Below, piece after piece: positions 1-17,523 of a stretch of DNA of 64,000 bases. The stretch's first letter is position 1, and every line of letters starts with the position of its first letter. Under the pieces are notes generated by a model that was given only the letters and a program-made list of their open reading frames with translations, searched no databases and was not told where the DNA came from. Position numbers and translations under genes: made by a program. Location: contig JAHBTR010000004.1 of the NCBI GenBank assembly GCA_019638475.1, positions 1 to 64,000 of the forward strand, read 5' to 3'. The stretch is from Chitinophagaceae bacterium (GTDB taxonomy: Bacteria; Bacteroidota; Bacteroidia; Chitinophagales; Chitinophagaceae).

Positions 1-123
1 CGGGCTTTGCGTTCGGGCGGGTTTCGGAGCACAAAACTGTCAACCAGCACTGAACTTGAATAGAAGAACAAAGTTCCAAGTTTGCACGTCAGCCCGCCTG
101 ACGCAAAACCCGTGTTATAGGGC
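1..123 (-). repeat. attC-like palindrome A (outer end lies outside the window)
   Basis: Imperfect inverted repeat. The arm at 1-21 (plus strand CGGGCTTTGCGTTCGGGCGG) pairs with the arm ending near 113 (CCCGCCTGACGCAAAACCCG), with unpaired bases inside the stem. The inner box at 114-123 reads GTTATAGGGC on the plus strand and supplies the TAA stop codon of the 115-1089 gene. An internal motif (TTTCGGAGC, a few bases, then ACTGTCAAC) is shared with sites B and C. The matching outer box should lie just left of base 1. The architecture follows integron attC sites; recombination activity is inferred. Confidence 0.6.
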
Positions 124-1089
124 GTTTTTCTTGTTTGGGTCAAGGGTGTCATTCGTGTCTTTGTAAAATGTGTTTTTAATTATGTCTGCTAATTCATTAA
201 CTTCTCCATTGTAACTTGTTCCAACGTTATAGTCATTGATTATATAATTTTTAGCATACCAGTCAAAATAGTCACTGCTGCTTTCTGTCGGATTTTCAAG
301 ATACTTTTTATAGGCGTTTACGATTTTTTCAGTTCCTAACTTTACACTTTCTAGGTCACTTATTAATTTGTCAGAACGAACTTGCATAACTCCTAATGTA
401 TGTGGCTTTTTTGTTAGCTTGAATTTCAAATTTTCAACTTGTCTTGCAATTTTTGGTCTATTAAAGTCTTCATAGATAATTATTGCATAAACAATGCTTT
501 CGAGTATTTCATTGTTTGTCAAGTCCTTGATAAGCTGTCCATAAAACCTTTTGAAATAATGATAACGGCTCTTTAAATATTTGTCTTTTCGTTTTTGTGT
601 CGCTTCTTGTGAAAAGCGTAGGTTGTTTGCTACTTGGAAAATAAAGATTAAGATAATTATCCAAAGTTCATTTGCAACAGTTGTGAAGTCAGGCAAAATA
701 TTCGCTTTAACTTTTATGAGTTTTTCGTAGGTGAAGTATGATATAACTACGATTGCTGTCCAATAAAGAAACTGTCTATACCAATTCAGTAAAAGTCCGC
801 GATTAGTAGCTAAATTGAAAATCAGTCTGAATAGTATGTAGTAAATGTTAACCAAATAAATATTCCAAACAAATTTGTCAAGTCCGAAATAATATAAACT
901 TGTCGAAACGATAATAATGTAGACAATGGGAGTAAGAACTCTAATCAGAAAGTTCAAAGCTGGAGCTTCTTCTGTCTTAACGAATATGGAAATTTCCATA
1001 TAGCCAATCGAGTAGGAATGTTTGCCTATCCAATTGATTAAGAAAAAAAGTCCAACGCCTAAGATTATATGAACTAAAAGTATCTCCAT
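115..1089 (-). CDS. Membrane protein with lysozyme-like C-terminal motif, last visible cassette
   Basis: 324 residues. The first half has about four or five hydrophobic segments (roughly residues 3-20, 50-68, 75-95, 105-122 and 140-155). The second half is soluble and charged. Between about residues 200 and 240 it contains IYEDFNRP and then TLGVMQV, an acidic residue followed by a G-x-MQ motif that recalls the Glu and GLMQ motifs of lysozyme/transglycosylase folds. That similarity is a visual impression and not a family assignment. The start ATG is 33 nt after the site B outer box. The stop codon TAA is formed by the inner box of site A, so the gene fills its cassette exactly. No family is recognised with confidence. 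The cargo next to it makes an envelope-acting defence effector possible. Confidence 0.7.
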   Translation of the reverse strand: MEILLVHIILGVGLFFLINWIGKHSYSIGYMEISIFVKTEEAPALNFLIRVLTPIVYIIIVSTSLYYFGLDKFVWNIYLVNIYYILFRLIFNLATNRGLLLNWYRQFLYWTAIVVISYFTYEKLIKVKANILPDFTTVANELWIIILIFIFQVANNLRFSQEATQKRKDKYLKSRYHYFKRFYGQLIKDLTNNEILESIVYAIIIYEDFNRPKIARQVENLKFKLTKKPHTLGVMQVRSDKLISDLESVKLGTEKIVNAYKKYLENPTESSSDYFDWYAKNYIINDYNVGTSYNGEVNELADIIKNTFYKDTNDTLDPNKKNAL

Positions 1090-1122
1090 TTTTTTTGTCT
1101 AGTTTGTTGTCGTCTTTAAAAT

Positions 1123-1260
1123 GCCCTATAACGTTTTGCGGCTTTGCGAAGAAGCGGATTTCGGAGCTCAAAACTGTCAACATAGCACAAAAGTTGATGC
1201 GAGGTAGAATGTTCAATTAACCACTGAACCCGCTTTTTTGCAAAACCGCTGTTATCGGTT
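1123..1260 (-). repeat. attC-like palindrome B
   Basis: About 138 bp imperfect palindrome between the 324-residue membrane protein and the restriction operon. The outer box GCCCTATAAC (1123-1132) and the inner box GTTATCGGTT (1251-1260) carry the AAC/GTT pair expected of attC ends. The inner arms are built from GTTTTGCGG-type sequence and pair with interruptions. The shared internal motif TTTCGGAGC...ACTGTCAAC is present. The minus-strand sequence leaving the outer box, GTTATAGGGC, is identical to the inner box of site A. The inner box does not match the start of the unit it should close (see site C), so this unit looks rearranged. Confidence 0.6.
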
Positions 1261-1297
1261 CGGTGTTCTTCTTCCGTCCTGTTTGTCAGTCGGTTGT

Positions 1298-1384
1298 GCG
1301 TTGGGTTTGCAAGCTCTTTGACAAAGCTTTGGTTGATGCGTTGGCTTGTGCGGCTTTGGCAATGTGCTTGCAAAATGCGTTGGC
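1298..1384. repeat. Covarying palindrome E1 flanking the restriction operon
   Basis: The arm TTTGCAAGC, a TCT bulge and TTGACAAAGC (1306-1327) pair with GCTTTGGCAA, a TGT bulge and GCTTGCAAA (1353-1374), with one mismatch. The loop contains GTTGGCTTGTGC. GCGTTGG flanks both sides in the same orientation. E2 at 6665-6752 has different arm sequences, but the same bulge triplets in the same places and the same loop motif. The following bases at 1379-1404 (GTTGGC...GTCGGCTTATTC) recur at 6806-6830. E1 and E2 therefore bracket the restriction-modification genes. Confidence 0.6.
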
Positions 1385-1398
1385 TTAAAGATGTCGGC

Positions 1399-4272
1399 TT
1401 ATTCATTTAATGAAATTTCTTTGATTAAGTCAACTATTTTGTTGTTGCTGAATTGTGTCTTGAACTCAATTTTTACTTTGCCGTCAAAGAATTTTTCAGC
1501 GTGTTTGATTTTGAATTTTTCTTCGTCACGAAGTCCGTCTTTGCTGTTTACGTCTTTGGTTTCTACAATGAAGTTTAGTTTTTGCTCTCCGTCTTTGAAT
1601 TTCAAAACATAGGCAAAGTCAGGTGAATATGATTTGCCACCTGCAACTGGAATTTTAATTGAGTTCTTCGGGATTTTCGTGAACACAATTACTTCTTTTA
1701 TTTCTGTCTTGATGTTAGATTTCTCCAAGTCAGAATCGTAATACAATTCGTCAAAGAAGTAAGAGTTTGCAACATCTTCGTCTGAAAACAAAACACCAAC
1801 ATCTGAAGCGGAAATTTCTTTCAACACATTTCCTTTTTCGTCTGTCAACTTGGTTGGATGAATGCTGTTTGAAACCTTTTTATATTCAATCGAATACTTG
1901 TCAAACGCTTGTGTCATTAAGAAAAAGTCAAAATTATGTTTGATTATTCTTAGTGTCGTTTGGTTAAGATATTTATTTATGTCTGTTTCTGCGTCAATGA
2001 TTGATTGATGTAATGTTGCGATGTTTATGTTTAGAATCTTTGAAAGTTCTTTCAAAAAGTCGCTGTATTTCATTATGGAAATAGTTGCGGTCTTTCGGTT
2101 GTAAACCGATTCAGGTTCGCTTGCAATTGCTTTGTTGTCCTTGATTTCAACTTTTGAAATTCTCTCATTAATTCCGTCCGAAGTGAAATTGTCTTTTTGT
2201 GCTTTTAAAAATTCAGTGAACAAAGTTTTGAAGTTGGCTTCGTTGTCAAACTTATATTCCAAAATTACTTTCTCATTCAGTTTTTCCCATAGGTCTTTCA
2301 GTTCTTGATATTTTTCTGTTCTCACAACAACTTTCTTTTTCGGGTCGGTTGCTTTGCGAACCTTATTAGAGTTTACGCCTTCAAATATTCTCGGATAGCT
2401 TTGTTTGATGAAGTCAAACCCACCTGTCTTGAATGAGTTTGTTCTTGTGATTACGTTGTTAGTGTCTAAAACTTCCAAAAGTTCGTCTTCGGTTGTTTCG
2501 TATAACTCGCAAATCTTTTTAATCATTTGCTCAGAAAGTTTGTCAGGAACTTGTTCAATGGAAATAGCTCCCGATTTCTGATTGATTTCATTCACCAATT
2601 TATCTACAAAGTCGCTTTCGGTAAAGTCAACAAAGTAGTTCAAATAAAATTGTTCGTCCTTTACACGGTTGCCATATTCATTCACTGGTAAACGTAAACC
2701 ACGACCAACTTCTTGAAGTTTTGAAATTTCGCTGCCACTGCTTCGGAGTTTGCAAATCTGAAATACGTTTGGATTATCCCAACCTTCACGCAAGGTCCAT
2801 TTTGAGAAAATAAACCGTCTTGGATTTTCCAAATCAAGCATTGCTTGTTTGTCGTGCAGAATTTCGTTTATCTCTTTTTCAATGGCTTCGTCTTTCTCCG
2901 TGTTGTCTTTTGAAAAATATCCTGCGTGTGTTGCCGAAAGGTCAAGCAATGTTTTTTCAAGATATGCTTTGTAAAAAGCATCTTTTTCTGTCTTTAGCAA
3001 TTCTTCAATTTCTGCTTTGATATATTGTTCAACTGTTTTACGGATATAGCCTTCTTTGTTTCGGTATTCGTCTATATTGTCAATGAAGAAAAGCGTTAAT
3101 GGTTTAATCTTTACTTCACGTGTCAATAGCTCTTTTTCAATTTCAAAGTGGTGCTTGATTGCCTTTTGAATCATTGTTTCCTGCAACTTTTCGGCATAAG
3201 AATAAGGGTTGATTTTATCTCCCTTTTTCATTTCTAAGCCGTTGGTTAAAACAACCGTGCTTTTATTCAAATTTTCAATTCCCAAGTCAGACATTTCAGG
3301 ATGTATCTTTTTCAGACTTTCCTTTTTAGAGACTGTTACTGTTTTTCGTCTGTCATTTTCAATCAATTCAAAACTGGCTTCGGTTCCATCTGAATCAATG
3401 AATTTTACGATTGCGTTTTCACCTGCATTAAATTCAGTGATGTGTCCGATTACGCCTTTCACTAAATTTCTGTTGAATGAATCAACGGCTGTTAGAGTGT
3501 AAATCAAGTTTTCATAACCTTGAAAAGTCGCACCATAACGCAAAATAAATTGGGGCTTCATTTTCTGAATGTTCTCCCAAGTCTTATTGCCTTGCCCAAA
3601 TTTGTGTGGCTCGTCAATAATCATAAAAGGTTTCGTTGCTCCAATGGCATCAAACGGAACGGTGTATTTGTCAAACAAACCTTTGTCAAAGCTTTTTTGC
3701 ATTGTTTCAGAGTTAATCATACCTGCGTTGATAATCATAACCTGAATACTGTTTTTCTCAAAAGTTCCAGCATTTACAAAACTGGTTACTGCAGGTGGTA
3801 TGAATGATTTTTTGCTCTTGCTGTTTTTCTGACTTTCTACAATATGCAAGTGAAGCGTTTTGCCATATTGTTCTTTGAAATGCTCACGGCTACTGTCCGA
3901 TTTCAAAAAATCAATTGTTCCTGCTTTGATGGATAAGGTTGGAACCACTACAATAAATTTGAAAATGCCGTAGTTTTTATTGAGTTCAAAAATTGTTTTG
4001 GTGTAGGTATAAGTTTTACCTGTTCCTGTTTCCATCATTATATCAATGATGTTGCTGTTACGCTTTATTTTTTCATTAACTCCGTTCCTTTCTTGAATGG
4101 CTCTTAAATTTTGTGGATAAGCCCAATCGCTTAAAAAATCAAATGTAGGGTTAATGCAGTTCTTATCCGCTTCTGTGGGCTGAACAAGGCTAATGTTCTC
4201 AAACACCGCAATAGTGCTATCTACTGCGTGTGATTGATGGTTCAGATTCTTCTCAAAATTAAATCCCTTCAT
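1399..4272 (-). CDS. res: Type III restriction enzyme, Res subunit
   Basis: 957 residues, a normal length for Res. It is the ATP-dependent helicase-nuclease of a type III restriction-modification system and needs Mod to find sites and cut unmodified DNA. Visible motifs are Walker A METGTGKT (residues 80-87), the DEPH box (220-223), a late helicase motif region with LREGWDNPNVFQ and EVGRGLRLP, and a C-terminal PD-(D/E)xK nuclease with PD at about 884-885 and ETK at about 904-906. All catalytic residues expected are present, so the gene looks intact. It starts 3 nt after the Mod stop codon, which indicates cotranscription and likely translational coupling. About 140 nt separate its stop from site B. 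Confidence 0.95.
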   Translation of the reverse strand: MKGFNFEKNLNHQSHAVDSTIAVFENISLVQPTEADKNCINPTFDFLSDWAYPQNLRAIQERNGVNEKIKRNSNIIDIMMETGTGKTYTYTKTIFELNKNYGIFKFIVVVPTLSIKAGTIDFLKSDSSREHFKEQYGKTLHLHIVESQKNSKSKKSFIPPAVTSFVNAGTFEKNSIQVMIINAGMINSETMQKSFDKGLFDKYTVPFDAIGATKPFMIIDEPHKFGQGNKTWENIQKMKPQFILRYGATFQGYENLIYTLTAVDSFNRNLVKGVIGHITEFNAGENAIVKFIDSDGTEASFELIENDRRKTVTVSKKESLKKIHPEMSDLGIENLNKSTVVLTNGLEMKKGDKINPYSYAEKLQETMIQKAIKHHFEIEKELLTREVKIKPLTLFFIDNIDEYRNKEGYIRKTVEQYIKAEIEELLKTEKDAFYKAYLEKTLLDLSATHAGYFSKDNTEKDEAIEKEINEILHDKQAMLDLENPRRFIFSKWTLREGWDNPNVFQICKLRSSGSEISKLQEVGRGLRLPVNEYGNRVKDEQFYLNYFVDFTESDFVDKLVNEINQKSGAISIEQVPDKLSEQMIKKICELYETTEDELLEVLDTNNVITRTNSFKTGGFDFIKQSYPRIFEGVNSNKVRKATDPKKKVVVRTEKYQELKDLWEKLNEKVILEYKFDNEANFKTLFTEFLKAQKDNFTSDGINERISKVEIKDNKAIASEPESVYNRKTATISIMKYSDFLKELSKILNINIATLHQSIIDAETDINKYLNQTTLRIIKHNFDFFLMTQAFDKYSIEYKKVSNSIHPTKLTDEKGNVLKEISASDVGVLFSDEDVANSYFFDELYYDSDLEKSNIKTEIKEVIVFTKIPKNSIKIPVAGGKSYSPDFAYVLKFKDGEQKLNFIVETKDVNSKDGLRDEEKFKIKHAEKFFDGKVKIEFKTQFSNNKIVDLIKEISLNE

Positions 4273-4275
4273 ATT

Positions 4276-6357
4276 TTAATACCTTGTTATAAAGTCAATG
4301 TCGCTTTTTTTCTTGTTGTTGTAAGTTTTTACGTTTTCTGAAATCTCTCGTAAACTCTTACTTTCAAAGTGATAGCCAAAGGCAATGATGCTTTTGGGTT
4401 CAAAATGTTTGTCTGTGTCAATCTTTTCCAACAATGCTTTTAGGCTGTCTGTAGTAAAGCCTTTGTGCATCAGATACAATCTGCCATTGCCGTAATAAGC
4501 GGTGTAACCGCTTAAATCAACACTTTCTAAATCTTGTGTCAATGCAATACCGTCATACGTTTTCCAAGTAGTCAATAAGGCTTTGATATCGTCTTCGGTT
4601 AGTTTGCCGGCATCAAACAGCGTTTGCGAACTATCAAACTGTTCTGCTTCAAAATTGTAATCTTCCCAGATTGGAGTTGTTTCAAAAATTTTGAATCCAA
4701 CATCAGGAACTTGTTTTTTTTGTTCTGGAAACATTCCAGCTTTCTTGTTTGAAGCTTCAATCTCCGATTTTATTTTATTTCCAGCTCTAATTATACGTTC
4801 CTTTGTTACTTCAAAAATTGTTGGCTCAGATTTGAGGGTATTCACAACAAATTCATATGCGGCTTTACTTTCTTTTTTCTTTGGGTCTATTGGCTCAGGA
4901 ATTTGAACTGTTATAAATTTTCTATCTCCACCATCTTCGGAATTTAATTGATAAATCGCTTCCGCTGTTGTCCCTGAACCTGCAAAGAAATCAAGAACTA
5001 TATCACCTTTTAATACACAAAAACGAATGAATTTTTTAATTACTTCTTCATCTTTAGGAAAAGCAAAAACATCTGCACCACCGAATAATTTTTTTAACCG
5101 TTTCTTGGCTCCCCTTGCATCTCTATAAAAAACACTTGATGGAACTTCAAATTCTGTTAAATGTAAATATCTCTTTAAGCAAGGAATAGTTTTTTCATCT
5201 GAACCAAAGTAAATTAAATCCTTTTCCAATAAATCAGGCAAGTTGTTTTCGTTAAATCGCCAACCACCATTTGGAACTTTGCAAGGTTTATTTGTTACTG
5301 GGTGTAGAATATCAAAACGTCCGCCATCACCAGTTCCTTGCGAAATGTCCCCAGCAAAAAAAACACCTGTTGCATCTGCCAAATTATAATGGTCGTGAGC
5401 TTTTGATGGATTATCATCACTTAGTGAGTCGTAAAAATCTTTTAAGCCATTAGAAATTTTGGCGTAATCATTACCAAATTCTGCTTTTAATTCTTCAAAT
5501 CTTTTATAAATCGGTTCGAGACCCTGTTTTCTTTCACGCCAAAGTTTTCCGTTAACTTCACTTTCATCATCTTCATTTATGATTTCTTCTGCTGATTGTT
5601 TGTTTTTTAAGTTTGCATAAATCACGCAATATTCGTGGTTGGTTGCAATCAATTTTGCCATTGATTTTCTTCCTGTGTTCCATATCATTGAAGCAATGAA
5701 ATTTTCTTCTCCAAAAATTTCGTCCATCAATAATCTGAGTTGAGCCACTTCATTATCATCAATAGACACAAAAATCACCCCATCGTCTTTTAATAATTGC
5801 TTTGCAATATAAAGTCGTGGATACATAAATGTAAGCCAAGCCGAATGACTGTTACTTTTTTGTTTTGTAAAATCTAAAATCCGTTTCGCTTTTTCTTCGT
5901 CTATACCAATAAGTTGCTGTAGTTCCTTTACTGTATATTTTCTATCGTCCTGATATAAGAACCCATCATTTCCTGTGTTGTAAGGTGGGTCTATATAAAT
6001 CATTTTTACTTGTTCGTAGTAGGCGTTGGCAAGGTGTTTCAGCACTTCCAAATTATCGCCTTTTATGAGCAAGTTTTCAGAATTAGCGTTTTCGGGTTTG
6101 CTATTATGAGTTTCGTCTGCTTTTAGCAAAGTGGTTGCTGGGTCGCTTGCCAAAAGCCGTGCATAGCTTTTGCCGAGCCAGTCTAAACCGTAACTCTCAG
6201 TAGAAAAATTGATTTCTTTTTCAGTCAGGTTAGCTTTAAATTTCTCTAATTGAAAATTTCCGTCTTTGTCAAAGCAATGCGGAAAGTGAATTTTCAATTT
6301 TTCCAAATCTTTGTTAGGCACTTTTATTTCAGTCGTAATTTTTTGCTCGTTACTCAT
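4276..6357 (-). CDS. mod: Type III DNA methyltransferase, Mod subunit
   Basis: 693 residues. It transfers a methyl group from S-adenosylmethionine to adenine in the recognition site and carries the target recognition region used by both Mod and Res. The DPPY catalytic motif is at residues 123-126, followed by NTGND. The AdoMet-binding motif FFAGSGTT lies far downstream, giving the beta-class order (DPPY before FxGxG) typical of type III Mod. The region between them is the probable specificity domain. The start codon overlaps the stop of the regulator gene in TAATG. No simple-sequence tract is visible in the gene, so the phase variation known for some mod genes is not suggested here. Confidence 0.95.
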   Translation of the reverse strand: MSNEQKITTEIKVPNKDLEKLKIHFPHCFDKDGNFQLEKFKANLTEKEINFSTESYGLDWLGKSYARLLASDPATTLLKADETHNSKPENANSENLLIKGDNLEVLKHLANAYYEQVKMIYIDPPYNTGNDGFLYQDDRKYTVKELQQLIGIDEEKAKRILDFTKQKSNSHSAWLTFMYPRLYIAKQLLKDDGVIFVSIDDNEVAQLRLLMDEIFGEENFIASMIWNTGRKSMAKLIATNHEYCVIYANLKNKQSAEEIINEDDESEVNGKLWRERKQGLEPIYKRFEELKAEFGNDYAKISNGLKDFYDSLSDDNPSKAHDHYNLADATGVFFAGDISQGTGDGGRFDILHPVTNKPCKVPNGGWRFNENNLPDLLEKDLIYFGSDEKTIPCLKRYLHLTEFEVPSSVFYRDARGAKKRLKKLFGGADVFAFPKDEEVIKKFIRFCVLKGDIVLDFFAGSGTTAEAIYQLNSEDGGDRKFITVQIPEPIDPKKKESKAAYEFVVNTLKSEPTIFEVTKERIIRAGNKIKSEIEASNKKAGMFPEQKKQVPDVGFKIFETTPIWEDYNFEAEQFDSSQTLFDAGKLTEDDIKALLTTWKTYDGIALTQDLESVDLSGYTAYYGNGRLYLMHKGFTTDSLKALLEKIDTDKHFEPKSIIAFGYHFESKSLREISENVKTYNNKKKSDIDFITRY

Positions 6358-6581
6358 TACTTGTCCTTTTTAATTTCGTTGTCAATCAATAGTTCCTTTA
6401 CATTTACGCCAAGAATTTCAGCGATTTCATAAAGCACTTCAATTCGTGGTTGTTGTCTGTTTTGCACATAAGCATTTACCATATTGTAGCTTTTGCCTAA
6501 TTGCTCGGCAAGCCAAGTCTGCTTGATGCCTTTTTCGTCCAACACTTCTTTTATTCTGTTCATTTGTTCAAATGATGTCAA
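6357..6581 (-). CDS. XRE-family helix-turn-helix regulator of the type III R-M operon
   Basis: 74 residues, almost entirely one Cro/C1-type helix-turn-helix. QTWLAEQLGKSYNMVNAYVQ (about residues 20-39) gives the recognition helices, followed by RQQPRIEVLYEIAEILGV. It is the first gene of the operon and overlaps mod by one base (TAATG). Small proteins of this family in front of restriction-modification genes usually act as controller proteins that delay restriction until methylation is established. That role is inferred from position. No operator could be picked out with confidence in the roughly 350 nt upstream. Confidence 0.85.
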   Translation of the reverse strand: MTSFEQMNRIKEVLDEKGIKQTWLAEQLGKSYNMVNAYVQNRQQPRIEVLYEIAEILGVNVKELLIDNEIKKDK

Positions 6582-6664
6582 GTCGCAAAGATAGGTTTAT
6601 AATTTTTAGTATCTCATTTTGTAAGATAAAAAGTAATCAAATTATTTTTAACAATCTCATAGGA

Positions 6665-6752
6665 GCATTGGCAAAAAACGGCTCTTTGGCTTTTGCCTGT
6701 GGGTTGGCTTGTGCAGTTGGGGCAAAAGCCAATGTGCCGTTTGTGCGTTGGC
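6665..6752. repeat. Covarying palindrome E2 upstream of the restriction operon
   Basis: The arm AAACGGC, TCT, TTGGCTTTTGCC (6676-6697) pairs with GGCAAAAGCCAA, TGT, GCCGTTT (6721-6742). The inner 12 bp are perfectly paired. The loop has GTTGGCTTGTGC, as in E1. The flanks are GCATTGGC on the left and GCGTTGGC on the right. The arms differ in sequence from E1 but keep the same folded shape, so structure and not sequence seems to be conserved. The rest of 6582-6940 has no convincing gene. It contains a second copy (6806-6830) of the GTTGGC...GTCGGCTTA segment that follows E1. Confidence 0.6.
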
Positions 6753-6940
6753 ATAAAATTGAATTAAAAAAAATGTGCGGTGGGGAAAATAAAAAATACA
6801 GAAGGGTTGGCAATGAGTGTCGGCTTACTCGTTGTCTGTTATGAATATCGTTTCCTGTTCTTTTGTAACCTGTCAAAATAGTTTGCTTTTTTTGTTTCTT
6901 GTTCCTGTTTCTCTGTCGGGTTGTATCGTCCGTTACACTT

Positions 6941-7077
6941 GCAGCCAACGGTTTGCCGCTTGCCGCAGTGGGGGATTTCGGAGCACTTCACTGTCAACCA
7001 AGCACAAATGTTGATAGAAGCACTGCACTTGATTTAACCACGTCAGCCCCCATTGCGGCAAACGGCTGTTAGCGGTT
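6941..7077 (-). repeat. attC-like palindrome C
   Basis: Outer box GCAGCCAAC (6941-6949) and inner box GTTAGCGGTT (7068-7077). The inner arm, minus strand AGCCGTTTGCCGC then GGGGG, pairs with CCCCC and GCGGCAAAC on the outer side. One side has extra unpaired bases, which is the asymmetry typical of attC stems. The shared motif TTTCGGAGC...ACTGTCAAC is present. The inner box supplies the TAA stop of the reverse transcriptase gene. Its complement GTTAGCGGT matches the first bases of the reverse transcriptase cassette at site D. Confidence 0.65.
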
Positions 7078-8859
7078 CGCCTTTCTTTGTCGTTCAATGA
7101 TTTGGTGATAGTAGCTAAATGGTTTGTCATATTTTACGTATTCTCTTATTTCTTTTCCATCGTCATCGTCAAGTTCTAATTCTGGTTCTTCAATTTCTTT
7201 GAGGAGCTTGTAATAATGTTTGCTGCGGTTCCTGTCAAGTTGTTTTATTTGTCTGATTGAATGTGGATTTACTGTTAATTCTCTAAAGCCGTTTTTCCAA
7301 CACATATCGGTAGAAACTTCGTCAAAGTTGTCAAGTCCAATTCTACCAACTGACATACCAATAAGTCTGTTTATTGCAGATTCTGTTGCAGTCCCTTTTG
7401 GTTTTCGCATTCCTACTTTAACTGCATTTTTGATTTCACGAATTATTGTTTTTTGTTTGGATAGTTCTTTGACTAAGGATTTTTTACGAACACGAATGTT
7501 GCCCAAATAGTCCATTTCATAACCTACAAAACCAATCCAAGGAAAGCCATTTTCTTCAACTTTACCCCACTTGTAAGGTCCTTTTGATTTTCCGTTCCAA
7601 AACTCCGTTAAATTTATTTTATCATTTTCATCAACTTTCTTTAGTTCATCTGAACTTTTGAATCTGTGAGGAAATAATTTAAGTTTTTTCAATTCATTCT
7701 CATAAGCGTTTTTTGCTTTATCACAAGTGTCATAATCTTTTGCAAGAATTATCATATCATCACAGAAACGTTGATAGAACACGTCAAATTTCTTTATTTC
7801 TATGTCTGCTTGATTTAGATAAATGTTTGCGATAAGCCCTGAAAGTGCACCACCTTGAGGAACGCCAATTCTTTCTTCTCTAATGTCTGTGTAATACGTT
7901 TTTATACTTGTGTCGTCAATCCATCCGAAAAAGCCGTTAGGAATTTCGTAAGAAGTCCAATATTCTAAGTCTGTTGATTTAGGAATATTAATGTTGAACG
8001 CAAAACTATTCAAATAACTTTTGAAAATCTTGATAGGTGTTTCGAGATTTAGTGTAGGATTACTTGTTTTTGCAGTATCAATCAAAGATTGAAACATTGA
8101 TAATGCGATTTTATGGTTTACAGTGTCATAAAATTTTTTCATATCACATTCCGCTACAAATAAATTGCAGGTTGCATTTTCGCTTCTAAATGCACCAATG
8201 CCAAGAATACAGTCGTGGTGTGAGATTATATTGCCTTGAGAGTTTCTTTTTGACCTGAAAGCATAAGAACTATCTTGAAATTGCTCATCAAAAACTCTTG
8301 TCAAAAATTTATTTGTTAAGCTCAATACAATTCTGTCTTTTAAGTTATAAATGCAAATTGGTCTGCACTCATTTGGTTTGTCAGCTTTTACTTTTTCTTT
8401 AAGCTTAGGGAAAATAATTGGTCTTGAAACTTCGTATTCATTTCCTTTAGAAACTGCAATTATTTCTTCTACGAATTTTTCTAAATTAAGAAACCAATTT
8501 GCTTTTATGGATTTTTTACTTTCTGCTTTTATTGTTTTTAAAAGGCTGTAATAATTTTTGTCATTTGATGTTAAAAATTCATTTTCTCTGTTTGGTTTTC
8601 GCCTTGATTGTTCCCCCAATTTCAGCCACTTTTTCCTTGGTGGTAAAATTGATAATAAAAAATCCGTTAGCTCTTTTTGATTTATTTCAAAATCATTTTG
8701 TGGTTCAGAATTGAGTTTGACGTGATAATTGTAGGCTGGATTTGAAGTTAGTAAGTGCAATAAATGCTTCTTGGACTTGTTCTTTGCAAGTTTGACACGA
8801 ACCTTGCAAATCATCTTCAAGATTTCATTTTTACTAAAATAACTTTCAAATGTCTTCAT
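7069..8859 (-). CDS. Reverse transcriptase of group II-like or unknown-group (DRT-like) type
   Basis: 596 residues. RT motifs appear in order: RPICIYNLKDRI (166-177), the first catalytic Asp in AECDMKKFYDTVNH (Asp at about 239), GVPQGGALSGLIANIYLNQ (332-350), the catalytic box FCDD (365-368, where most RTs have YxDD) and WIGFVGYEM (about 441-449). There is a long N-terminal extension of about 140 residues. No HNH nuclease of a mobile group II intron protein and no retron-type NAxxH motif is seen, so this is probably a stand-alone RT of the defence-associated or unknown-group kind. The gene begins a few bases after a structured RNA element (8868-9023). Its stop codon lies inside the inner box of site C. 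Defence function is inferred from the family and neighbours. Confidence 0.85.
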   Translation of the reverse strand: MKTFESYFSKNEILKMICKVRVKLAKNKSKKHLLHLLTSNPAYNYHVKLNSEPQNDFEINQKELTDFLLSILPPRKKWLKLGEQSRRKPNRENEFLTSNDKNYYSLLKTIKAESKKSIKANWFLNLEKFVEEIIAVSKGNEYEVSRPIIFPKLKEKVKADKPNECRPICIYNLKDRIVLSLTNKFLTRVFDEQFQDSSYAFRSKRNSQGNIISHHDCILGIGAFRSENATCNLFVAECDMKKFYDTVNHKIALSMFQSLIDTAKTSNPTLNLETPIKIFKSYLNSFAFNINIPKSTDLEYWTSYEIPNGFFGWIDDTSIKTYYTDIREERIGVPQGGALSGLIANIYLNQADIEIKKFDVFYQRFCDDMIILAKDYDTCDKAKNAYENELKKLKLFPHRFKSSDELKKVDENDKINLTEFWNGKSKGPYKWGKVEENGFPWIGFVGYEMDYLGNIRVRKKSLVKELSKQKTIIREIKNAVKVGMRKPKGTATESAINRLIGMSVGRIGLDNFDEVSTDMCWKNGFRELTVNPHSIRQIKQLDRNRSKHYYKLLKEIEEPELELDDDDGKEIREYVKYDKPFSYYHQIIERQRKANR

Positions 8860-8867
8860 AATTTAAA

Positions 8868-9023
8868 AAAGGAAGGGGGTTCCTGTAAAGCGATTTCTCG
8901 CATATTGACAAAGATACTGACATATAAATGTCTGCACATTTTAAACTGTCGGCTAGTGCTTTACCGTTATGACAGTGATACTTGCGAAGTTTTACAACTC
9001 CACCTTCGGAACCCCTTCCTTTA
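8868..9023 (-). ncRNA. Candidate structured RNA partner of the reverse transcriptase
   Basis: On the minus strand the segment begins AAAGGAAGGGGTTCC and ends GGAACCCCCTTCCTTT, a closing stem of about 15 bp with one bulged C, just before the RT start codon at 8859. Inside are clear hairpins. GAGTT and AACTT close a GTAA tetraloop. ACTGTC and GACAGT form a stem around about 20 nt. GACAT and ATGTC form another. GCGA and TCGC close a GAAA tetraloop. Two GNRA loops in 156 nt are unlikely in random AT-rich sequence. The 5' stem overlaps the last codons of the upstream gene. RTs of retrons and several DRT systems use an RNA encoded next to the RT; that this is one is inferred. Confidence 0.6.
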
Positions 9024-10041
9024 TTTTTTGTTGTTTTGTTTTATATCCTTTTTCATTTGCTAAATGTATGATACTTGCAAAATTTACATTACCATTTCTA
9101 GTTTCGTAACAGTTAATTAAAAAATTAATGCAATGAACTTCATTGAATTTTGCAACGTCCAATTTACTCAACTTAATAAAATATTTTAAACCAATATCAT
9201 AAGTGAATGTGTTTGCTATTGCCATTGCAACTTTGCACCATTCAGCGTATGAATAAGTAATTGATTTATTCTTGTTGGTTAAATAACGGATTATATCAGA
9301 CATTAATTTTCGGTCGTATTGATTATTCCTTTCAAAAGGATTGAGTAAAGCGTCTTTGTTGCTTACAAATTTAATTTGCCTAATCCTTCCATTTGTTGTC
9401 TTTGGTAAAGCAACAATGATATCTTCGTTATTGACTTGAAACTTATTAAATTTTTCTTTTTTTACAAGTTTGGTGTCATATGATAGAAAACACAAACGAC
9501 TTATATCGCTTCCGCTTTTGTCAAGTTCTATTTCGTAAGTGTTCTGAAAATAAGTTGATAATTTCTTAAATGCACTTTTATGTTTGGTGTCAAGGTCAAT
9601 TTCGTGTGCAATGTCTGCGAATTCTAACTGAACAAGTCCTTTGAAACCGTTGTTTGAGGGCGAACGCCAAAATGAAAACACAAATTCATCTTTCAAAAGT
9701 ATGTCATAACATTTTACAATTTGGTCTTCTTCAAGTTTGTCAATGTCAATTACGATAAGACTATTGTAATGTTTTACATTTTCTCTCGTTCGACTTGTGT
9801 TGAATGTTGCACTAAATGTTACTGCCGGCAAACGCTTTTTATTGTCATTGTAATAATCTGTGTTGCCGTTATTAAGATTAGTTCTTAGGTCTGTTACTTG
9901 TTGTTTGTGTTTGTCAGACTGTATATCTTCTAAAACGCTTTTTATTGTTGGTTCGATTGCAGAAACATTCGTCCAAGTGTTTTCTTGGAAAGAAACTTTC
10001 AAGTTTAATATGTCGGTTGTTTCTTGCATTGTCGTTGTCAT
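8992..10041 (-). CDS. BT4734-like (VirE N-terminal) primase-related protein
   Basis: About 349 residues from the ATG at 10041, 7 nt inside the cassette boundary. The longer reading frame up to 10104 would be translated from palindrome D and is rejected. The N-terminal half matches the BT4734/VirE_N family, which is related to archaeo-eukaryotic primases: VIDIDKL, then SPSNNGFKGLV, then SDISRLCFLSYD, consistent with DxD and later catalytic motifs. The C-terminal half (YDRKLMSDIIRYL...YAEWCKVAMAIANTF) resembles a primase C-terminal helical domain. It is followed by the candidate RNA and the RT within one cassette. It might prime or assist the RT; that is speculative. Its last nine codons overlap the 5' stem of the RNA element. 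Confidence 0.75.
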   Translation of the reverse strand: MTTTMQETTDILNLKVSFQENTWTNVSAIEPTIKSVLEDIQSDKHKQQVTDLRTNLNNGNTDYYNDNKKRLPAVTFSATFNTSRTRENVKHYNSLIVIDIDKLEEDQIVKCYDILLKDEFVFSFWRSPSNNGFKGLVQLEFADIAHEIDLDTKHKSAFKKLSTYFQNTYEIELDKSGSDISRLCFLSYDTKLVKKEKFNKFQVNNEDIIVALPKTTNGRIRQIKFVSNKDALLNPFERNNQYDRKLMSDIIRYLTNKNKSITYSYAEWCKVAMAIANTFTYDIGLKYFIKLSKLDVAKFNEVHCINFLINCYETRNGNVNFASIIHLANEKGYKTKQQKIKEGVPKVEL

Positions 10042-10047
10042 AAGGTG

Positions 10048-10247
10048 ACCGCTAACGGGCAGGGCTTTATGCAGGTTGGGCAATAGCATTCCGTCCGCCC
10101 ACACACCCGCTGCTGATTGAAAATATAAAGTTGAATGTAAGAACTAAAGTTGAAAGTTGTTTGTCCTGCCCGAACCCCAGCCTGGATTTGCAATTGGTTG
10201 ATGTTACAATGTCGAGCCCAACTTGCATAAAACCCAATGTTGTATGC
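10048..10247 (-). repeat. attC-like palindrome D
   Basis: The longest of the four, 200 bp. The left arm GGGCTTTATGCAGGTTGGGC (10058-10077 region) pairs with GCCCAACTTGCATAAAACCC (about 10216-10235), with two mismatches. The outer box ACCGCTAAC (10048-10056) and the inner box GTTGTATGC (10239-10247) carry the AAC/GTT ends. The central region differs from A, B and C and lacks their shared TTTCGGAGC motif, so this is a second subfamily. The inner box is identical to the proposed attI junction at 11140-11148. Confidence 0.65.
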
Positions 10248-10251
10248 AGTT

Positions 10252-11103
10252 TTAGTAGTACGTTATTTTTCTAAATTCAGTCCAGTAATTTTTGTCGTCA
10301 GTAGATTGTAATCGATAAATCCAACTTTCGTTGTCATACAAATATTTGTACACTTTTATTTGAACTGGCTTGCCAACATATTTGCTTTTACTAATTGTTT
10401 CATTTCCGTATTCATCAAATTCTTTTTCAAAATAGACCTGATATGTATAGTCGTCTTTTGACGATAACTCAAAATTTATACGATGCTCTAACTCTTTTCG
10501 CCTCTTATCAAGTCTTACAAAGTGTCTTTCTGCCAATATACCTTCTTTATTTATTCTGTCTTCGATGTAACTGTTTTCGTCTTTCCATTCATAAATCCTT
10601 GTTTCTTTTTCTGCATCATCATTATAAGAAGCATACTCGTCTCTTATTTTTTGTTTCTTTTCATTGTAACTAATTTTATTTCTTGCCCAAAAGCCTGTGC
10701 TATCAAATGTTCCATAATAATGTAAAATTTCAATGAGCAGGTTATTGTCATAAATATATTTTGAAAGGTAAGTTTTAGTAAGAGGCTGGTTGTAGTAGTT
10801 TTTGAAAGTCAGTTTTTCAATAAGATTATTGTTGTTGTCAAACTTATATTCTATCACATTGTCCGGATTTAAATCTCTGTCGAAACCGTTTTCCTTAATT
10901 AAGTTGCCGTGTGTGTCGAAATTCTCAACTTTCTGTAGTCCTGATTTTGTTTTAAATACCTCATCAGCCTTACTTGGGTCTAATTTCCCGTTTATAGTAT
11001 AATATTCAATACTCTTTACTTTTCTGTCTTTCATTTTGGATGAGTAACTAAATAATAAAAGAAAAAGAAACAGGTAATTATAGTTAAGTTTCATAAACCT
11101 CAT
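10252..11103 (-). CDS. Exported or membrane-anchored YD-repeat-like protein, first cassette
   Basis: 283 residues, or 280 if the ATG at 11094 is used. An N-terminal hydrophobic stretch (YLFLFLLLFSYSS) looks like a signal or anchor; no lipobox cysteine is visible. The rest is rich in short beta-type units such as NFDTHGNLIKENGFD, EYKFDNNNNLIEKLTF and KEFDEYGNETISKSKY. These resemble the YD/RHS-type repeats of surface and immunity-like Bacteroidota proteins. The stop codon lies 4 nt before the inner box of palindrome D. As the unit nearest the recombinase and the proposed promoter, it would be the most recently acquired and most strongly expressed cassette if the integron model holds. Function unknown. 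Confidence 0.65.
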   Translation of the reverse strand: MRFMKLNYNYLFLFLLLFSYSSKMKDRKVKSIEYYTINGKLDPSKADEVFKTKSGLQKVENFDTHGNLIKENGFDRDLNPDNVIEYKFDNNNNLIEKLTFKNYYNQPLTKTYLSKYIYDNNLLIEILHYYGTFDSTGFWARNKISYNEKKQKIRDEYASYNDDAEKETRIYEWKDENSYIEDRINKEGILAERHFVRLDKRRKELEHRINFELSSKDDYTYQVYFEKEFDEYGNETISKSKYVGKPVQIKVYKYLYDNESWIYRLQSTDDKNYWTEFRKITYY

Positions 11104-11139
11104 TAGTGGTTTTTGAAGTTTTTAGGTGTCGAACAAATT

Positions 11140-11258
11140 GCATACAACTCACAAATATACGCAACTATATAATTATTCAACAAAAAATATTAAATTTATT
11201 TTCAAAGATGGGTAAATAATTGGGGACCAATTTTTAATTGTAATTATTTGTTGCGTAT
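11140..11258. other. Proposed attI region of the recombinase
   Basis: The box GCATACAAC at 11140-11148 reads GTTGTATGCA on the minus strand and matches ten bases of the inner box of palindrome D. It is therefore the expected junction of the first cassette. Next to it ATACGCAAC (11157-11165) and GTTGCGTAT (11250-11258) form a perfect 9 bp inverted repeat, and a third ACGCAA lies at 11339-11344, just before the recombinase gene. These are candidate binding or autoregulation sites for the recombinase. The role is inferred from position. Confidence 0.5.
11152..11184 (-). promoter_or_regulatory. Candidate cassette promoter (Pc)
   Basis: On the minus strand TTTG (11181-11184) is followed after 21 nt by TATATTTG (11152-11159), a full match to the Bacteroidota -7 consensus TAnnTTTG at a fitting distance from the -33 element. 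Transcription would begin within a few bases of the proposed attI junction and run into the first cassette. This is where an integron Pc promoter is needed. Confidence 0.6.
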
Positions 11259-11361
11259 TTTAAATAATTTAATTTCGCATTTTATATATCTTAGTTGCTG
11301 AATTGGTGCACTTTATTTTTTTTATAACTATTTATTTTACGCAATTTTTAATCTTTTAATT

Positions 11362-12432
11362 ATGCAATTACAATTGGCTAATTACTCTTTTTCTTTTGGA
11401 ATTCATAACAATAAAAATGTTATTTGGATTCATTTTCCTAAAAATCAACATCTAATTAATCAGCTTAAAGAAAATATAAAAGTTTATTGGAGCAATTCAA
11501 ATAAATGTTGGTATGCTTTGGATAATCCTAATTATAGAAAATTATTAGACATTCCTTTAAAAAGCATAGGAGAGGAGATTTTATTAAAACTGCATTCTAT
11601 TAATAAAAATGAGCTTATTCGCTATCGTGATTTATTGGTTCTTAAAGCATATAGTTATAATACTATTCGTACTTATTTTATTGAATTTGCTCAACTCTTG
11701 TATGTTTTAAATGATTTTCCTGTTTATGATTTAAGTTCTGAACAATTACGTAGTTATTGCTTGTATTGTATAAAAAAATTAAAGTTATCTGAAAATCAAA
11801 TGCACAGCAGATTGAATGCTTTAAAATTTTATTTTGAAAAAGTTCTTCATAAAGAAAAATTCTTTTTTGATATTCCAAGACCTAAAAAAATTAATTCATT
11901 ACCAAAAGTTCTAAATTTGAATGAGGTGCGAAAAATGTTTTCTAAAACAACTAATTTAAAACATTTACTTATTTTAAAGTTATGTTATGGAATGGGTTTA
12001 AGAGTTAGTGAAGTAGTTAACTTAAAAATTGAACATATTGATAGTAAGAGAATGCAGGTTTTAATTGCTACTTCAAAAGGTAAAAAAGATAGATATGTTA
12101 AATTGCCTGATTCTATTTTGATTGAACTTAGAGAATATTATAAAACTTATAAACCCAAAGAGTATTTGTTTGAAGGACAAACAGGTGGTCAATATTCTAT
12201 AAGAAGCGTACAACAAGTGTTTAAAGCAGCTATGAAAAAAGCAGGAATTAATAAAACAATTGGTATTCATGGTTTAAGGCATAGCTATGCAACACACCTA
12301 TTAGAAATGGGCACTGATATAAGTTATGTTCAAAAACTTTTAGGGCATAAAGACATTAAAACTACTCTTATTTATACACATGTTTCTAATAGAAGTTTAA
12401 GTAAAATTTCTTCTCCATTAGATATGCTGTAA
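11362..12432 (+). CDS. Tyrosine recombinase with integron-like position
   Basis: 356 residues. The catalytic residues are visible: Arg214 in GMGLRVSE, Lys239 region in TSKGKKDR, His303 and Arg306 in HGLRHSYATHLL, His329 in LLGHKD and Tyr338 in TTLIYTHV. The C-terminus ISSPLDML resembles the SPLDxL tail of IntI and related Bacteroidota recombinases. The N-terminus (residues 1-65) has a small domain with WSNSNKCWYALD, common in Bacteroidota XerD-like enzymes. The segment of about 35 residues that IntI proteins carry between the catalytic Lys and the HxxR motif is absent. The gene runs divergently from the cassette-like array and starts about 210 nt from the proposed attI. It probably catalyses cassette exchange; this is inferred. 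Confidence 0.9.
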   Translation: MQLQLANYSFSFGIHNNKNVIWIHFPKNQHLINQLKENIKVYWSNSNKCWYALDNPNYRKLLDIPLKSIGEEILLKLHSINKNELIRYRDLLVLKAYSYNTIRTYFIEFAQLLYVLNDFPVYDLSSEQLRSYCLYCIKKLKLSENQMHSRLNALKFYFEKVLHKEKFFFDIPRPKKINSLPKVLNLNEVRKMFSKTTNLKHLLILKLCYGMGLRVSEVVNLKIEHIDSKRMQVLIATSKGKKDRYVKLPDSILIELREYYKTYKPKEYLFEGQTGGQYSIRSVQQVFKAAMKKAGINKTIGIHGLRHSYATHLLEMGTDISYVQKLLGHKDIKTTLIYTHVSNRSLSKISSPLDML

Positions 12433-12715
12433 TTTATTGTATTATTATTTTTGTGTAGAAAGACTTTTACGGCTTCGCCATTCTCAGTTACAAGTTTTTG
12501 TTTCTAAAATTTTGTGTTTATATGCAGCTAAAATAATGATGTTTTTGTTCAATAAAAAAAATTTTTAGATGAATATTATTTGATTGAAATATTTAAGCTT
12601 AATATCCCAGTTTAACGATAAGTAAATTTCTTTTTATTCTCATAAAAATATCATTCTTATATAACTTTTGTTGTAAGAATCAATTTATCATTATTTAAAC
12701 ATTGAATTTTTATAT

Positions 12716-12925
12716 GAACTTGTTTAGACTTTTATCAATTTAATATACACGAAGCTAAAAAAAGCGAAAGTTGTCAGGTTTTGTCATGTTGAGCTTGTCT
12801 AAACCGATTAATTGAAGCATATTTTTTAAACCTCGCCTTCGACACATTTCGACAGGCTCAATGTAACAAGGCTGACAGCGTTTTTTATTCACAATTCGTA
12901 AAAAATTAAAAGTCTAAACAAGTTC
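12716..12925. mobile_element. MITE-like palindromic element
   Basis: A perfect 19 bp inverted repeat, GAACTTGTTTAGACTTTTA at 12716-12734 and its complement at 12907-12925, bounds a 210 bp non-coding element. Inside is a second imperfect inverted repeat built on GTCATGTTGAGCTTGTC and GACAGGCTCAATGTAAC, a motif type common in Bacteroidota intergenic repeats. No target duplication could be identified. It sits on the outer side of the recombinase. The remaining bases of 12433-13015 show no gene. Confidence 0.6.
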
Positions 12926-12983
12926 TATATTTAAAAACCATTTCTCCAAAACAAAAAAACTTTTCTACTAACAACTGTTAGCT

Positions 12984-12991
12984 TAATTTTG
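12984..12991 (+). promoter_or_regulatory. -7 promoter box of the acyl-CoA dehydrogenase gene
   Basis: TAATTTTG fits TAnnTTTG and lies 24 nt before the ATG at 13016. This places transcription start after 12989 and rules out the longer reading frame beginning there. No clear -33 TTTG is seen. Confidence 0.5.
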
Positions 12992-13015
12992 CACTTCTTT
13001 TTAAAAATATATATT

Positions 13016-14170
13016 ATGCATTTACAACTTACCGAAGAACATTTAATGATTCAAAAAGCAGCACGTGATTTTGCAGTAAATGAATGTTTACCAGGTGTTA
13101 TTGACAGAGATGAACACCAACGTTTTCCAAGAGAACAAATTACAAAACTTGCAGAACTTGGTTTTATGGGTATGATGGTAAATCCTGAATATGGAGGAAG
13201 TGGTATGGACACTATTAGCTATGTGTTGGCTATGGAAGAAGTAAGTAAAATAGATGCCAGTGTAAGTGTATGTATGAGTGTAAATAATAGTTTGGTATGC
13301 TATGGTTTACAAGCCTATGGCTCTGAAGAACAAAAACAAAAATATTTAACCCCTATTGCTCAAGGCAAAAAAGATGGAGAACTATACATTGGTGCATTTT
13401 TATTGAGTGAACCAGAAGCAGGAAGTGATGCAACAAGCCAACGTACAACTGCTGAAGATAAAGGAGATTATTATTTATTAAATGGTACAAAAAATTGGAT
13501 TACCAATGGTAGTAGTGCAAGTGTATATTTAGTAATGGCACAAACAGATGCCAGCAAAGGGCATAAAGGAATTAACTGTTTTATAGTAGAAAAAAAATGG
13601 GATGGTGTTACAGTAGCTGCTAAAGAAAATAAATTAGGTATTCGTGGTAGCGATACGCATACTATTATGTTTAACGATGTTAAAGTACCCAAAGAAAATA
13701 GAATAGGTGCAGATGGTTTTGGATTTTCATTTGCTATGAAAACATTAAGTGGTGGGCGTATTGGTATTGCTTCTCAAGCATTGGGTATAGCAAGTGGTGC
13801 TTATGAACTTGCTTTAAAATATGCTAAAGAACGTAAAGCATTTGGTAAAGAAATAGCCCAACACCAAGCCATTCAATTTAAGTTGGCAGATATGGCTACT
13901 CGTATTGAAGCTGCACGTTTATTATGCCTTAAAGCTGCTTGGGAAAAAGATAATGGAATGGATTATGCTTTAAGCAGTAGTATGGCAAAAGTTTTTGCCA
14001 GCGAGACTGCTATGTGGGTTACTACAGAAGCTGTACAAATACATGGTGGCTATGGCTATGTAAAAGAATATCATGTAGAACGCTTAATGAGAGATGCAAA
14101 AATTACCCAGATTTATGAAGGCACCAGCGAGGTACAACGTATTGTCATTAGCAGAAGTATTTTGAAATAA
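13016..14170 (+). CDS. Acyl-CoA dehydrogenase
   Basis: 384 residues. FAD-dependent enzyme that introduces the alpha-beta double bond into acyl-CoA and passes electrons to ETF. Family marks are YIGAFLLSEPEAGSDATS (flavin/substrate loop), NGTKNWITNG, GIRGSDTH, FGKEIAQHQAIQFKLADMAT and the C-terminal AVQIHGGYGYVKEYHVER followed by IYEGTSEVQR. The Glu of YEGTSE is the expected catalytic base of short-chain/butyryl-type members. The start MHLQLTEEHLM at 13016 fits homologues and the promoter box upstream. Substrate chain length cannot be fixed from sequence. Confidence 0.93.
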   Translation: MHLQLTEEHLMIQKAARDFAVNECLPGVIDRDEHQRFPREQITKLAELGFMGMMVNPEYGGSGMDTISYVLAMEEVSKIDASVSVCMSVNNSLVCYGLQAYGSEEQKQKYLTPIAQGKKDGELYIGAFLLSEPEAGSDATSQRTTAEDKGDYYLLNGTKNWITNGSSASVYLVMAQTDASKGHKGINCFIVEKKWDGVTVAAKENKLGIRGSDTHTIMFNDVKVPKENRIGADGFGFSFAMKTLSGGRIGIASQALGIASGAYELALKYAKERKAFGKEIAQHQAIQFKLADMATRIEAARLLCLKAAWEKDNGMDYALSSSMAKVFASETAMWVTTEAVQIHGGYGYVKEYHVERLMRDAKITQIYEGTSEVQRIVISRSILK

Positions 14171-14262
14171 GAGGTTGCATTTGACTTTGTGTTCTCTGTT
14201 CCTCTACCGCATAGGCGGCACAAGTTGTGGTGAAAAAATAAATAGCTTTTAAGAAAAAACAT

Positions 14263-15915: not shown

Positions 15916-16032
15916 ATATTTTTTATAAAACTTTAATGTATAGTGAAGATAGTTTGATTTTATTGTAAAATGATAACCAATACAAATGTTACACTTTCTG
16001 CGTAAATGAACAATAGAGTAGCAGAAGTTTTT

Positions 16033-17523
16033 TTAATTTCCAGTACATCTTGCAATACCACTTTTGGCTCTTTGGTCTAAGCTGTTTTTATAGTCATGAT
16101 TATCCATGTCAATACATTTTTCATAAAATTTAATAGCTTGTTTTTTATCGCCTCTTTTTTCGTGAATCATAGCAATTTGCAAAGCTGCACGTGCAGCATA
16201 ATATTCAGTTCTGGTTTCACCAATATTAATGGCTTTTATATAAAAAGCTATGGCATCATCATAGTTTTGCAAATCGTCATTAATTCTTCCTACCCGATAA
16301 TTAAATTCTAATTGTTCGCCAACATCTGTAAAGCTACTGGTACTTTTTCCTTGCAGTAAATTAATAGCATCTTTGTTAAAACCTCCATCATTTAATATTC
16401 TTGCTTTTAGCAAAATTTGGTTATCCCATTTACCTCGTTTTGCTTCTCTTAGAGCTTGTTGGTCTGCATCTGTTACAGTAGCACCTTTGTTTATACAATT
16501 TTTTCTGGCTTCTTTGGCTTTAGTCATATTGCCTTGTAAATAATAGCACCAACTTATTTTTTGATAAATATCTTTTACATAAAAGTTGCCTTTAAATGCT
16601 TGTAAATAGCTTTCAAAATCATTGATAGCTTGTTGTGTTTGCAATCTGTATAAGTGTATAAAGCCTAATAGGAAATCCCAAACTGGTGTAGAAAAATATT
16701 CAGAAGATTTGTTTCTGTTGTTAATAATAATTTCAGCATCATTTACCTGTTTATTATTAAGACTGAGGTTGGCAGCCATGTATGCAAAGAGGTGATTGTT
16801 TACTACATCTAATTTTTTGTCTTTAATAAATTGTATTGATTCATCTTTTTTATTTTCTAAATAAAACATTAAATAGCAATACATAAATGCTGCTTCATTA
16901 GACATTAGTTTTGCCCATGGGTCATTAGAACTATTGGCAAAATGGCGTACTGTATTAATACCATTGGTAATGCTTCCTTTTATGCCAAATAATCCTGCAA
17001 TCCATTGATAACCTTTAGGAATAGTGCCAGCTACTGCTTGTAGGCTTCCATATAAAAGTTGATTAGGGGTAAATGTGGGATAAGCCTTTTTATTTTGTTT
17101 TATGTATTTATAAGCTGTTTGAAAATCTAATGCTGCCCTAACTTTATTATCAAACTTTATATTCACAGCAGATTTGTGTAAATACACAGCACTTAAACAA
17201 AATGTATAAAAAGGCGATGATTCTGAACCTTGTTTTAATAATTTTATTCTCTCTTCAAATTTGGGGTATCTTTTTTTGAACTCTAAAGGGTCTTCATTAA
17301 AAAATAGCACAAAAAAATCAATATAATTTTCTAATACAACTGGTATAAGATTATCGGGGTTTTGCTGCTTTGCTTTATTGATTAATGCCTGACCATTATC
17401 TAACCTTAAATGCATTATTTCTAAATAGGCTTGCTGACAAGTAGTGTTAAACTCATATACTTTATTGGCTCTAATGAAAAAACAATTTAAAATGATAATA
17501 GAAGTCGTTAATAAAAATTTCAT
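16033..17523 (-). CDS. Secreted tetratricopeptide-repeat protein
   Basis: 496 residues with an N-terminal signal peptide (MKFLLTTSIIILNCFFIRA). Helical repeats run through the protein. The clearest TPR units are near the C-terminus: FNYRVGRINDDLQNYDDAI, then AALQIAMIHEKRGDKKQAIK. The protein probably works in the periplasm as a scaffold. It lies upstream of recN in the same direction with a gap of about 115 nt. No specific partner can be named. Confidence 0.75.
   Translation of the reverse strand: MKFLLTTSIIILNCFFIRANKVYEFNTTCQQAYLEIMHLRLDNGQALINKAKQQNPDNLIPVVLENYIDFFVLFFNEDPLEFKKRYPKFEERIKLLKQGSESSPFYTFCLSAVYLHKSAVNIKFDNKVRAALDFQTAYKYIKQNKKAYPTFTPNQLLYGSLQAVAGTIPKGYQWIAGLFGIKGSITNGINTVRHFANSSNDPWAKLMSNEAAFMYCYLMFYLENKKDESIQFIKDKKLDVVNNHLFAYMAANLSLNNKQVNDAEIIINNRNKSSEYFSTPVWDFLLGFIHLYRLQTQQAINDFESYLQAFKGNFYVKDIYQKISWCYYLQGNMTKAKEARKNCINKGATVTDADQQALREAKRGKWDNQILLKARILNDGGFNKDAINLLQGKSTSSFTDVGEQLEFNYRVGRINDDLQNYDDAIAFYIKAINIGETRTEYYAARAALQIAMIHEKRGDKKQAIKFYEKCIDMDNHDYKNSLDQRAKSGIARCTGN

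Follow-up and report, generated by a model that had tools for sequence, protein, structure and literature searches.

Can an array of gene cassettes be assembled in the manner of an integron by a recombinase that is not an integron integrase? The question is raised by contig C7 (JAHBTR010000004.1) of a Chitinophagaceae bacterium (GCA_019638475.1; 2.59 Mb in 12 contigs), whose first 64 kb constitute the window analysed here. As the sequence-only reading of this stretch had noted, a tyrosine recombinase gene on the + strand (11362–12432) lies divergent from minus-strand cargo genes, which are separated into units by hairpin sites, here A to D. Judged from sequence, the locus is very probably the head of an integron-like array of ~105 kb, where one attI likely serves the adjacent non-IntI tyrosine recombinase for both insertion and excision of cassettes. 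By the tests made the locus works like an integron, but by membership it is no IntI integron. The elements at the head of the array are listed below in forward-strand coordinates; those of sites A–D take in both R boxes, and bit scores refer to a covariance model, R1, built from 28 sites.

11362..12432, + strand: tyrosine recombinase, 356 amino acids (aa), non-IntI clade, Pfam PF00589
11362..11590, + strand: extra N-terminal domain of the recombinase, ~75 aa, predicted strand-strand-helix-strand-strand
11146..11230, minus strand: attI; TTGCGTATATTTGTGA precedes the G^TT crossover, which falls between 11148 and 11147
10048..10247, minus strand: site D, of the long type (AAC to GTT, 188 nt), from the palindrome scan
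6941..7076, minus strand: site C, 111.5 bits, in the training set
1124..1259, minus strand: site B, 118.4 bits, in the training set
1..122, minus strand: site A, cut by the contig end, 95.3 bits (cut at its 3' end), outside the training set

Site D, which belongs to a longer site type, scores highly in the palindrome scan and matches the covariance model at E 0.09 only. These four palindromes had been proposed to cut the genes into units; all four are real and beyond chance, although the units prove far more numerous than four. Used as a DNA query against the source genome, site C retrieves further copies mostly on contig C8 and on a single strand. Within positions 1–120,000 of C8, 42 curated sites, one of them a decayed half-site, extend from 679 to 95,150 on the + strand. 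C7 starts within site A and C8 starts before its first site. The two contigs are predicted to join, with the array running on to C8; sites A–D included, this inferred adjacency gives 46 sites over ~105 kb. The last C8 site is followed by a fragment of an IS3-type transposase and, after it, by elongation factor G. Genome-wide, R1 has 49 matches, of which C8 holds 38 and C7 three (A, B and C); the other eight, some of them weak, fall on C6, C5 and C1. On C8, 37 of the 38 matches fall on the + strand at 0.7–95 kb, and the remaining one is the reverse of one of those. Stray sites off the main array lie at G000:C6:125142, C5:81074, C5:82386 and C5:437022. The array is uniform in direction, with 80 of 82 C8 open reading frames (ORFs) of at least 90 aa in one orientation, and its 41 intervals have a median of 1.1 kb and a maximum of 9.4 kb, 17 of them carrying at least two ORFs. 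An unbroken counterpart is found in genome G581 (locus L132), where 27 sites on the array strand adjoin the recombinase on one contig and 22 of 26 joins are chained; that test covered the array strand, with nine opposite-strand palindromes outside it.

An integron cassette carries R' at its start and a complementary R'' at its end. Most of C8 follows this rule: in 36 of its 41 joins, all nine bases of R' at one site are complementary to R'' of the next. With the threshold at eight bases, 60 of 1681 non-adjacent pairs match, as do R' and R'' within one site in 3 of 42 cases, and the maximum among 20,000 permutations is 10 joins. Moreover, one C8 pair retains complementarity despite a mutated core (GTAAGGTGC with GCACCTTAC), an instance of co-variation. 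Five C8 joins break the rule, one of which involves the decayed half-site (C8:53384). Three of the four window cassettes (1, 2 and 4) have matching R'/R'', and cassette 3, which carries a type III restriction-modification system, shows no match between its R' (6941–6949) and R'' (1251–1259). Two more hairpins, at window positions 6676–6742 and 1306–1374, stand near both ends of this mismatched cassette and are possibly relics of other sites. Among relatives, 19/19 joins are chained in L107 and 18/21 in L104, with 1 each on the opposite strands. Separately, the body of C8 cassette 15 recurs at 87% identity in another genus (L139:1501-2020; G007, contig C19), with exact bounds GTTGGCAGC and GCTGCCAAC and without a following hairpin site.

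Comparison of near-identical loci places the point of exchange at a single base. Loci L121 (SZAS-3), L122 (UWPOB_BACT3) and L132 (BAC2 bin 38), all from public metagenome-assembled genomes, encode 100% identical recombinases and share 98.8–99.6% DNA identity over 6.2–6.4 kb on the recombinase side. Their homology stops at the attI GTT (...TTGCGTATAATAAAGAG^TTA), beyond which the first cassettes differ, continuing as GTTAGGCGC, GTTAGTGGC and GTTACAGGT, respectively. For each of these three first R' boxes the complement stands at the start of a hairpin further along, at distances of 1855, 1229 and 3907 bases, respectively. The source attI reads TTGCGTATATTTGTGAG^TT, with its crossover at the same position as the breakpoint in the three loci, and shares TTGCGTATATTTG with L035 and L038. 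Of the 10 divergent loci examined, eight (the source, L120, L121, L122, L123, L132, L035 and L038) have a following hairpin whose start is complementary to the first R' beside attI; L037 and L116 show no such complement. The shared 6.2 kb of L121, L122 and L132 ends at a tRNA-Leu gene, and the same module, ~99% identical (L121:11177-16044; also in L122 and L132), encodes a large serine recombinase (PF00239 and PF07508). Taken together, these two features suggest that the three platforms probably ride a tRNA-integrated island, and movement of the module may explain part of the difference in first cassettes. In addition, the source locus is colinear with L119 at 83–90% identity over window 11247–20024, and the 69.9 kb of site-bearing contigs in the L119 genome yield one match of at least 250 bp to the source array (263 bp, 70%). 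The cassette rule, the single orientation of the ORFs and the shared attI breakpoint thus bear out the integron-like organisation with attC-like units that had been proposed, and the strain comparison suggested alongside it does find different units at one exact base between near-identical loci.

Recombinase and sites are associated across the bacterial family. In 195 own-family genomes, with cut-offs of 1e-50 for the recombinase and 0.001 for R1 sites, 69 carry the recombinase and 114 carry sites (113 typed for the association test). Sites are present in 62 of the 69 recombinase genomes versus 51 of the 126 others (Fisher p = 5e-12). The sequence-only reading had named, as evidence that would count against it, members of this recombinase family without adjacent palindromes; sites turn out to be the usual accompaniment. 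Canonical IntI occurs in 1 of the 195, as a partial gene with a stop. Related loci include Chitinophagales bacterium UW2SPNA023, with a 92% identical recombinase, and Sediminibacterium sp. Most relatives with site matches have the array downstream of the recombinase and co-directional with it: in one set of 20 loci, 16 are so arranged, one is divergent and three are without matches; in another set of 16, the counts are six, five and five. Chryseobacterium sp. SNU WT5 has a co-directional member on a plasmid (L193:11974-22095), with six 140-nt sites, 3 of 5 joins chained and ordinary cargo, for example Crp/Fnr and RidA genes. Contigs of many recombinase loci often stop ~2 kb or less downstream of the recombinase, the pattern that assemblies broken at repeated sites would give; arrays are probably under-counted. 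A run of sites was also seen in a single-contig genome lacking a family recombinase at 1e-50 (G022, contig C1, ~2.62–2.64 Mb).

It is very improbable that the cassette system, itself genuine, is driven by another enzyme, XerC/XerD or one acting in trans, with the adjacent gene a passenger or decayed. The 51 genomes that hold sites without a family recombinase would fit this explanation, as would the stops carried by some recombinase relatives. The adjacency of recombinase to attI is conserved, however, and its presumed catalytic residues are intact: R214, K239, H303, R306, H329 and Y338, which we take to be the catalytic set, are invariant across 54 aligned sequences. Furthermore, the source genome has three detected tyrosine recombinases, and the two besides the array recombinase are XerD (over its cut-off) and a protein nearest to XerC (below its cut-off).

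Whether the array recombinase is itself an unusual IntI can be judged from both protein and sites. Integrons are defined by IntI with its additional I2 domain in the definitions given by PMC9668308 and PMC4792948. PMC4792948 (2016) describes this domain as accommodating extrahelical bases and as not identified elsewhere. In the alignment, the IntI-specific insertion is absent from 35/35 sequences (the source and 34 relatives) and present in 10/10 canonical IntIs, taken from 30 fetched loci; the stretch from GLRVSE to HGLRH measures 91–94 aa in the former and 133 aa in the latter. The insertion is also absent from the source genome's own Xer proteins. IntI rows form a separate clade with 100/100 support. 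Among profiles, the integron integrase TIGR02249 reaches 191.3 bits, under its cut-off of 265, and the best NCBIfam match, NF040815 (XerA), reaches 201.7 against a cut-off of 220; XerC (TIGR02224, 168.4 of 335.15) and XerD (TIGR02225, 164.5 of 329.6) also remain under cut-off. The earlier judgement that this recombinase is not a canonical IntI is thereby upheld. The nearest PDB sequence is 4a8e. The extra N-terminal domain has W43-S44 invariant in 22 aligned sequences and a model pLDDT (predicted local distance difference test) of 80.6; DUF5710 matches it weakly in 10 of the 22 family members (best E 0.0021), although the source recombinase itself has no DUF5710 match.

Covariation supports the stem of the sites, both sides having changed in 11 of 14 predicted pairs. 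According to the account of attC structure in PMC2727003, the extrahelical bases lie on the R''-L'' arm. In a gapped-stem comparison, extra bases on this arm are found in 0/25 chained source sites but in 34/34 chained canonical attC sites of the same phylum, at 1–4 bases each; the canonical sites come from four of 15 loci (L169, L170, L171 and L173), on the strand opposite intI. Relatives L104, L107, L114 and L108 have such bases in 5/54 sites and lack them in 49/54. A single additional base is present on the opposite arm in 12 of the 25 source sites, which counts against bulge-free stems. Of the same 25 sites, 18 show a 4-nt offset between their spacers, and in 10 the spacers measure exactly 1 and 5 nt. 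On the 15 canonical integron loci, R1 does not exceed 24.9 bits.

It is therefore very improbable that this is a canonical IntI integron with an integrase that simply scores below the profile cut-off: the shared cassette rule and attI logic, the IntI-like C-terminal SPLD tail seen in the alignment and a best Foldseek match to VchIntIA (2a3v, E 4.7e-16) favour that reading, but the missing insertion, the separate IntI clade, the missing R''-L'' bases and the low R1 scores on canonical loci do not. Membership in the IntI integrons was accordingly rejected, the IntI-specific domain and the R''-L'' extrahelical bases both being absent. Barely credible is a defence island with scattered hairpin repeats (miniature inverted-repeat transposable elements, MITE, or repetitive extragenic palindromes, REP) beside an unrelated recombinase, which would suit the eight matches outside the array and the defence-rich cargo, but not the flank complementarity between successive sites (36/41) or the insertion point next to the recombinase that several loci have in common, neither of which transposed repeats would give.

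For an integron-like array served by the adjacent non-IntI recombinase, we infer the acting enzyme, the hairpin substrate, the promoter and the role of the N-terminal domain as follows. A cassette circle would carry an attC-like site folded into a hairpin, and the recombinase would link its R' to attI at G^TT; repeated insertion beside attI would extend the array outward. A promoter-like motif, TTTG-N21-TATATTTG, overlaps attI (read by eye against the promoter consensus), and from it the most recently inserted cassettes would be expressed. The choice of strand and site would depend on the unequal stem spacers and perhaps on the extra N-terminal domain, rather than on IntI's I2 helix reading extrahelical bases. 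The locus keeps its cassette logic although it lacks both the IntI domain and the extra bases on the R''-L'' arm, so that the requirement for the two can be put to a direct test.

The cassettes of the window carry the following genes and ends.

10252..11103, minus strand: cassette 1 gene, 283 aa, no family match in profile searches
11148–11140 and 10239–10247, minus strand: ends of cassette 1, GTTGTATGC and its complement, matching R'/R''
8992..10041, minus strand: cassette 2 gene 1, VirE/PriCT-2 primase-like partner of a defence reverse transcriptase (DRT), PADLOC RTasVirE-PriCT2 432.8 bits; start placed within the cassette (the mechanical ORF extends to 10104)
7069..8859, minus strand: cassette 2 gene 2, UG39 defence reverse transcriptase, PADLOC RT_UG39 668.6 bits
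6357..6581, minus strand: cassette 3 gene 1, helix-turn-helix (HTH) regulator, profile match
4276..6357, minus strand: cassette 3 gene 2, type III methyltransferase, profile matches
1399..4272, minus strand: cassette 3 gene 3, type III restriction enzyme, profile matches
115..1089, minus strand: cassette 4 gene, 324 aa, function unassigned (ORF)
1132–1124 and 114–122, minus strand: ends of cassette 4, GTTATAGGG and its complement, matching R'/R''

The claim that the cargo is almost entirely defence holds in part. In the window, 4/7 genes are of defence type (5/7 counting the small HTH regulator), belonging to the type III restriction-modification system and to the UG39 reverse transcriptase with its primase-like partner. 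On C8, 26 of 40 submitted proteins match PADLOC at 1e-8, some of them through generic domains (DEDDh, HTH); the 40 were picked from the 82 ORFs towards multi-gene cassettes, and one is cut at the locus edge. Specifically, one 9.4-kb cassette with matching ends encodes MzaC/D/E together with a DrmMII-like methyltransferase, and further C8 cargo comprises type I-like M and S subunits, a type II methyltransferase with a restriction enzyme, AbiEi/AbiEii pairs, AbiU, and PD-T4-6-like and large helicase-like proteins. As cassettes can hold several genes, a single event would transfer a complete restriction, DRT, MZA-like or AbiE-like system, so that whole defence systems would be gained at once.

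Across 395 genomes of the phylum, 109 have A2-like recombinases at 1e-80, the N-terminal part being missing from some of these, and canonical IntI exceeds its cut-off in 105; of 107 genomes with an IntI match, 106 are labelled as sharing the phylum only (outside the source's own class). On balance, we favour a second integron class, carried by chromosomes, tRNA-borne islands and plasmids across much of Bacteroidota, in which recombinases without I2 would read the hairpin through a DUF5710/HARP-like N-terminal domain, attC-like sites would lack extrahelical bases and operon-sized defence cassettes would be moved, and which surveys would have missed since they require the IntI domain. No description of the class turned up in the open-licence literature searched, which did not include preprints. 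Bacteroidota are named among the integron phyla in PMC8618304. The complete-genome survey PMC9024848 gives few Bacteroidetes integrons, with a complete one in Salinibacter ruber M1 and In0 before. A non-IntI class could explain that scarcity, which contrasts with the R1 sites present in 113 listed genomes of a single family. Canonical IntI itself, at 105 of 395 GTDB phylum genomes, is commoner than the survey suggests. If a recombinase without the hallmark IntI domain does run the array, it would represent an undescribed class of gene-capture platform.

Among known systems, the array most invites comparison with sedentary chromosomal integrons of the Vibrio superintegron type, with which it shares a large one-direction array, attI beside the integrase, R'/R'' complementarity, hairpin sites that are alike within a genome and, in the source locus, a divergent integrase. 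It differs in that the recombinase lacks the IntI domain, the R''-L'' extra bases are absent, the spacers are mostly offset by 4 nt, multi-gene intervals reach 9.4 kb and most relatives have a downstream, co-directional array. The recombinase resembles archaeal XerA (NF040815, 'site-specific tyrosine recombinase/integron integrase'), its best NCBIfam match, in the closest PDB sequence and in the absence of I2; unlike XerA, it falls below the 220 cut-off, possesses the extra N-terminal domain and has a cassette array alongside. Phage defence genes do occur as cassettes in the integrons of Vibrio and Xanthomonas, whereas here multi-gene systems occupy single cassettes, beside a non-IntI recombinase, in Bacteroidota.
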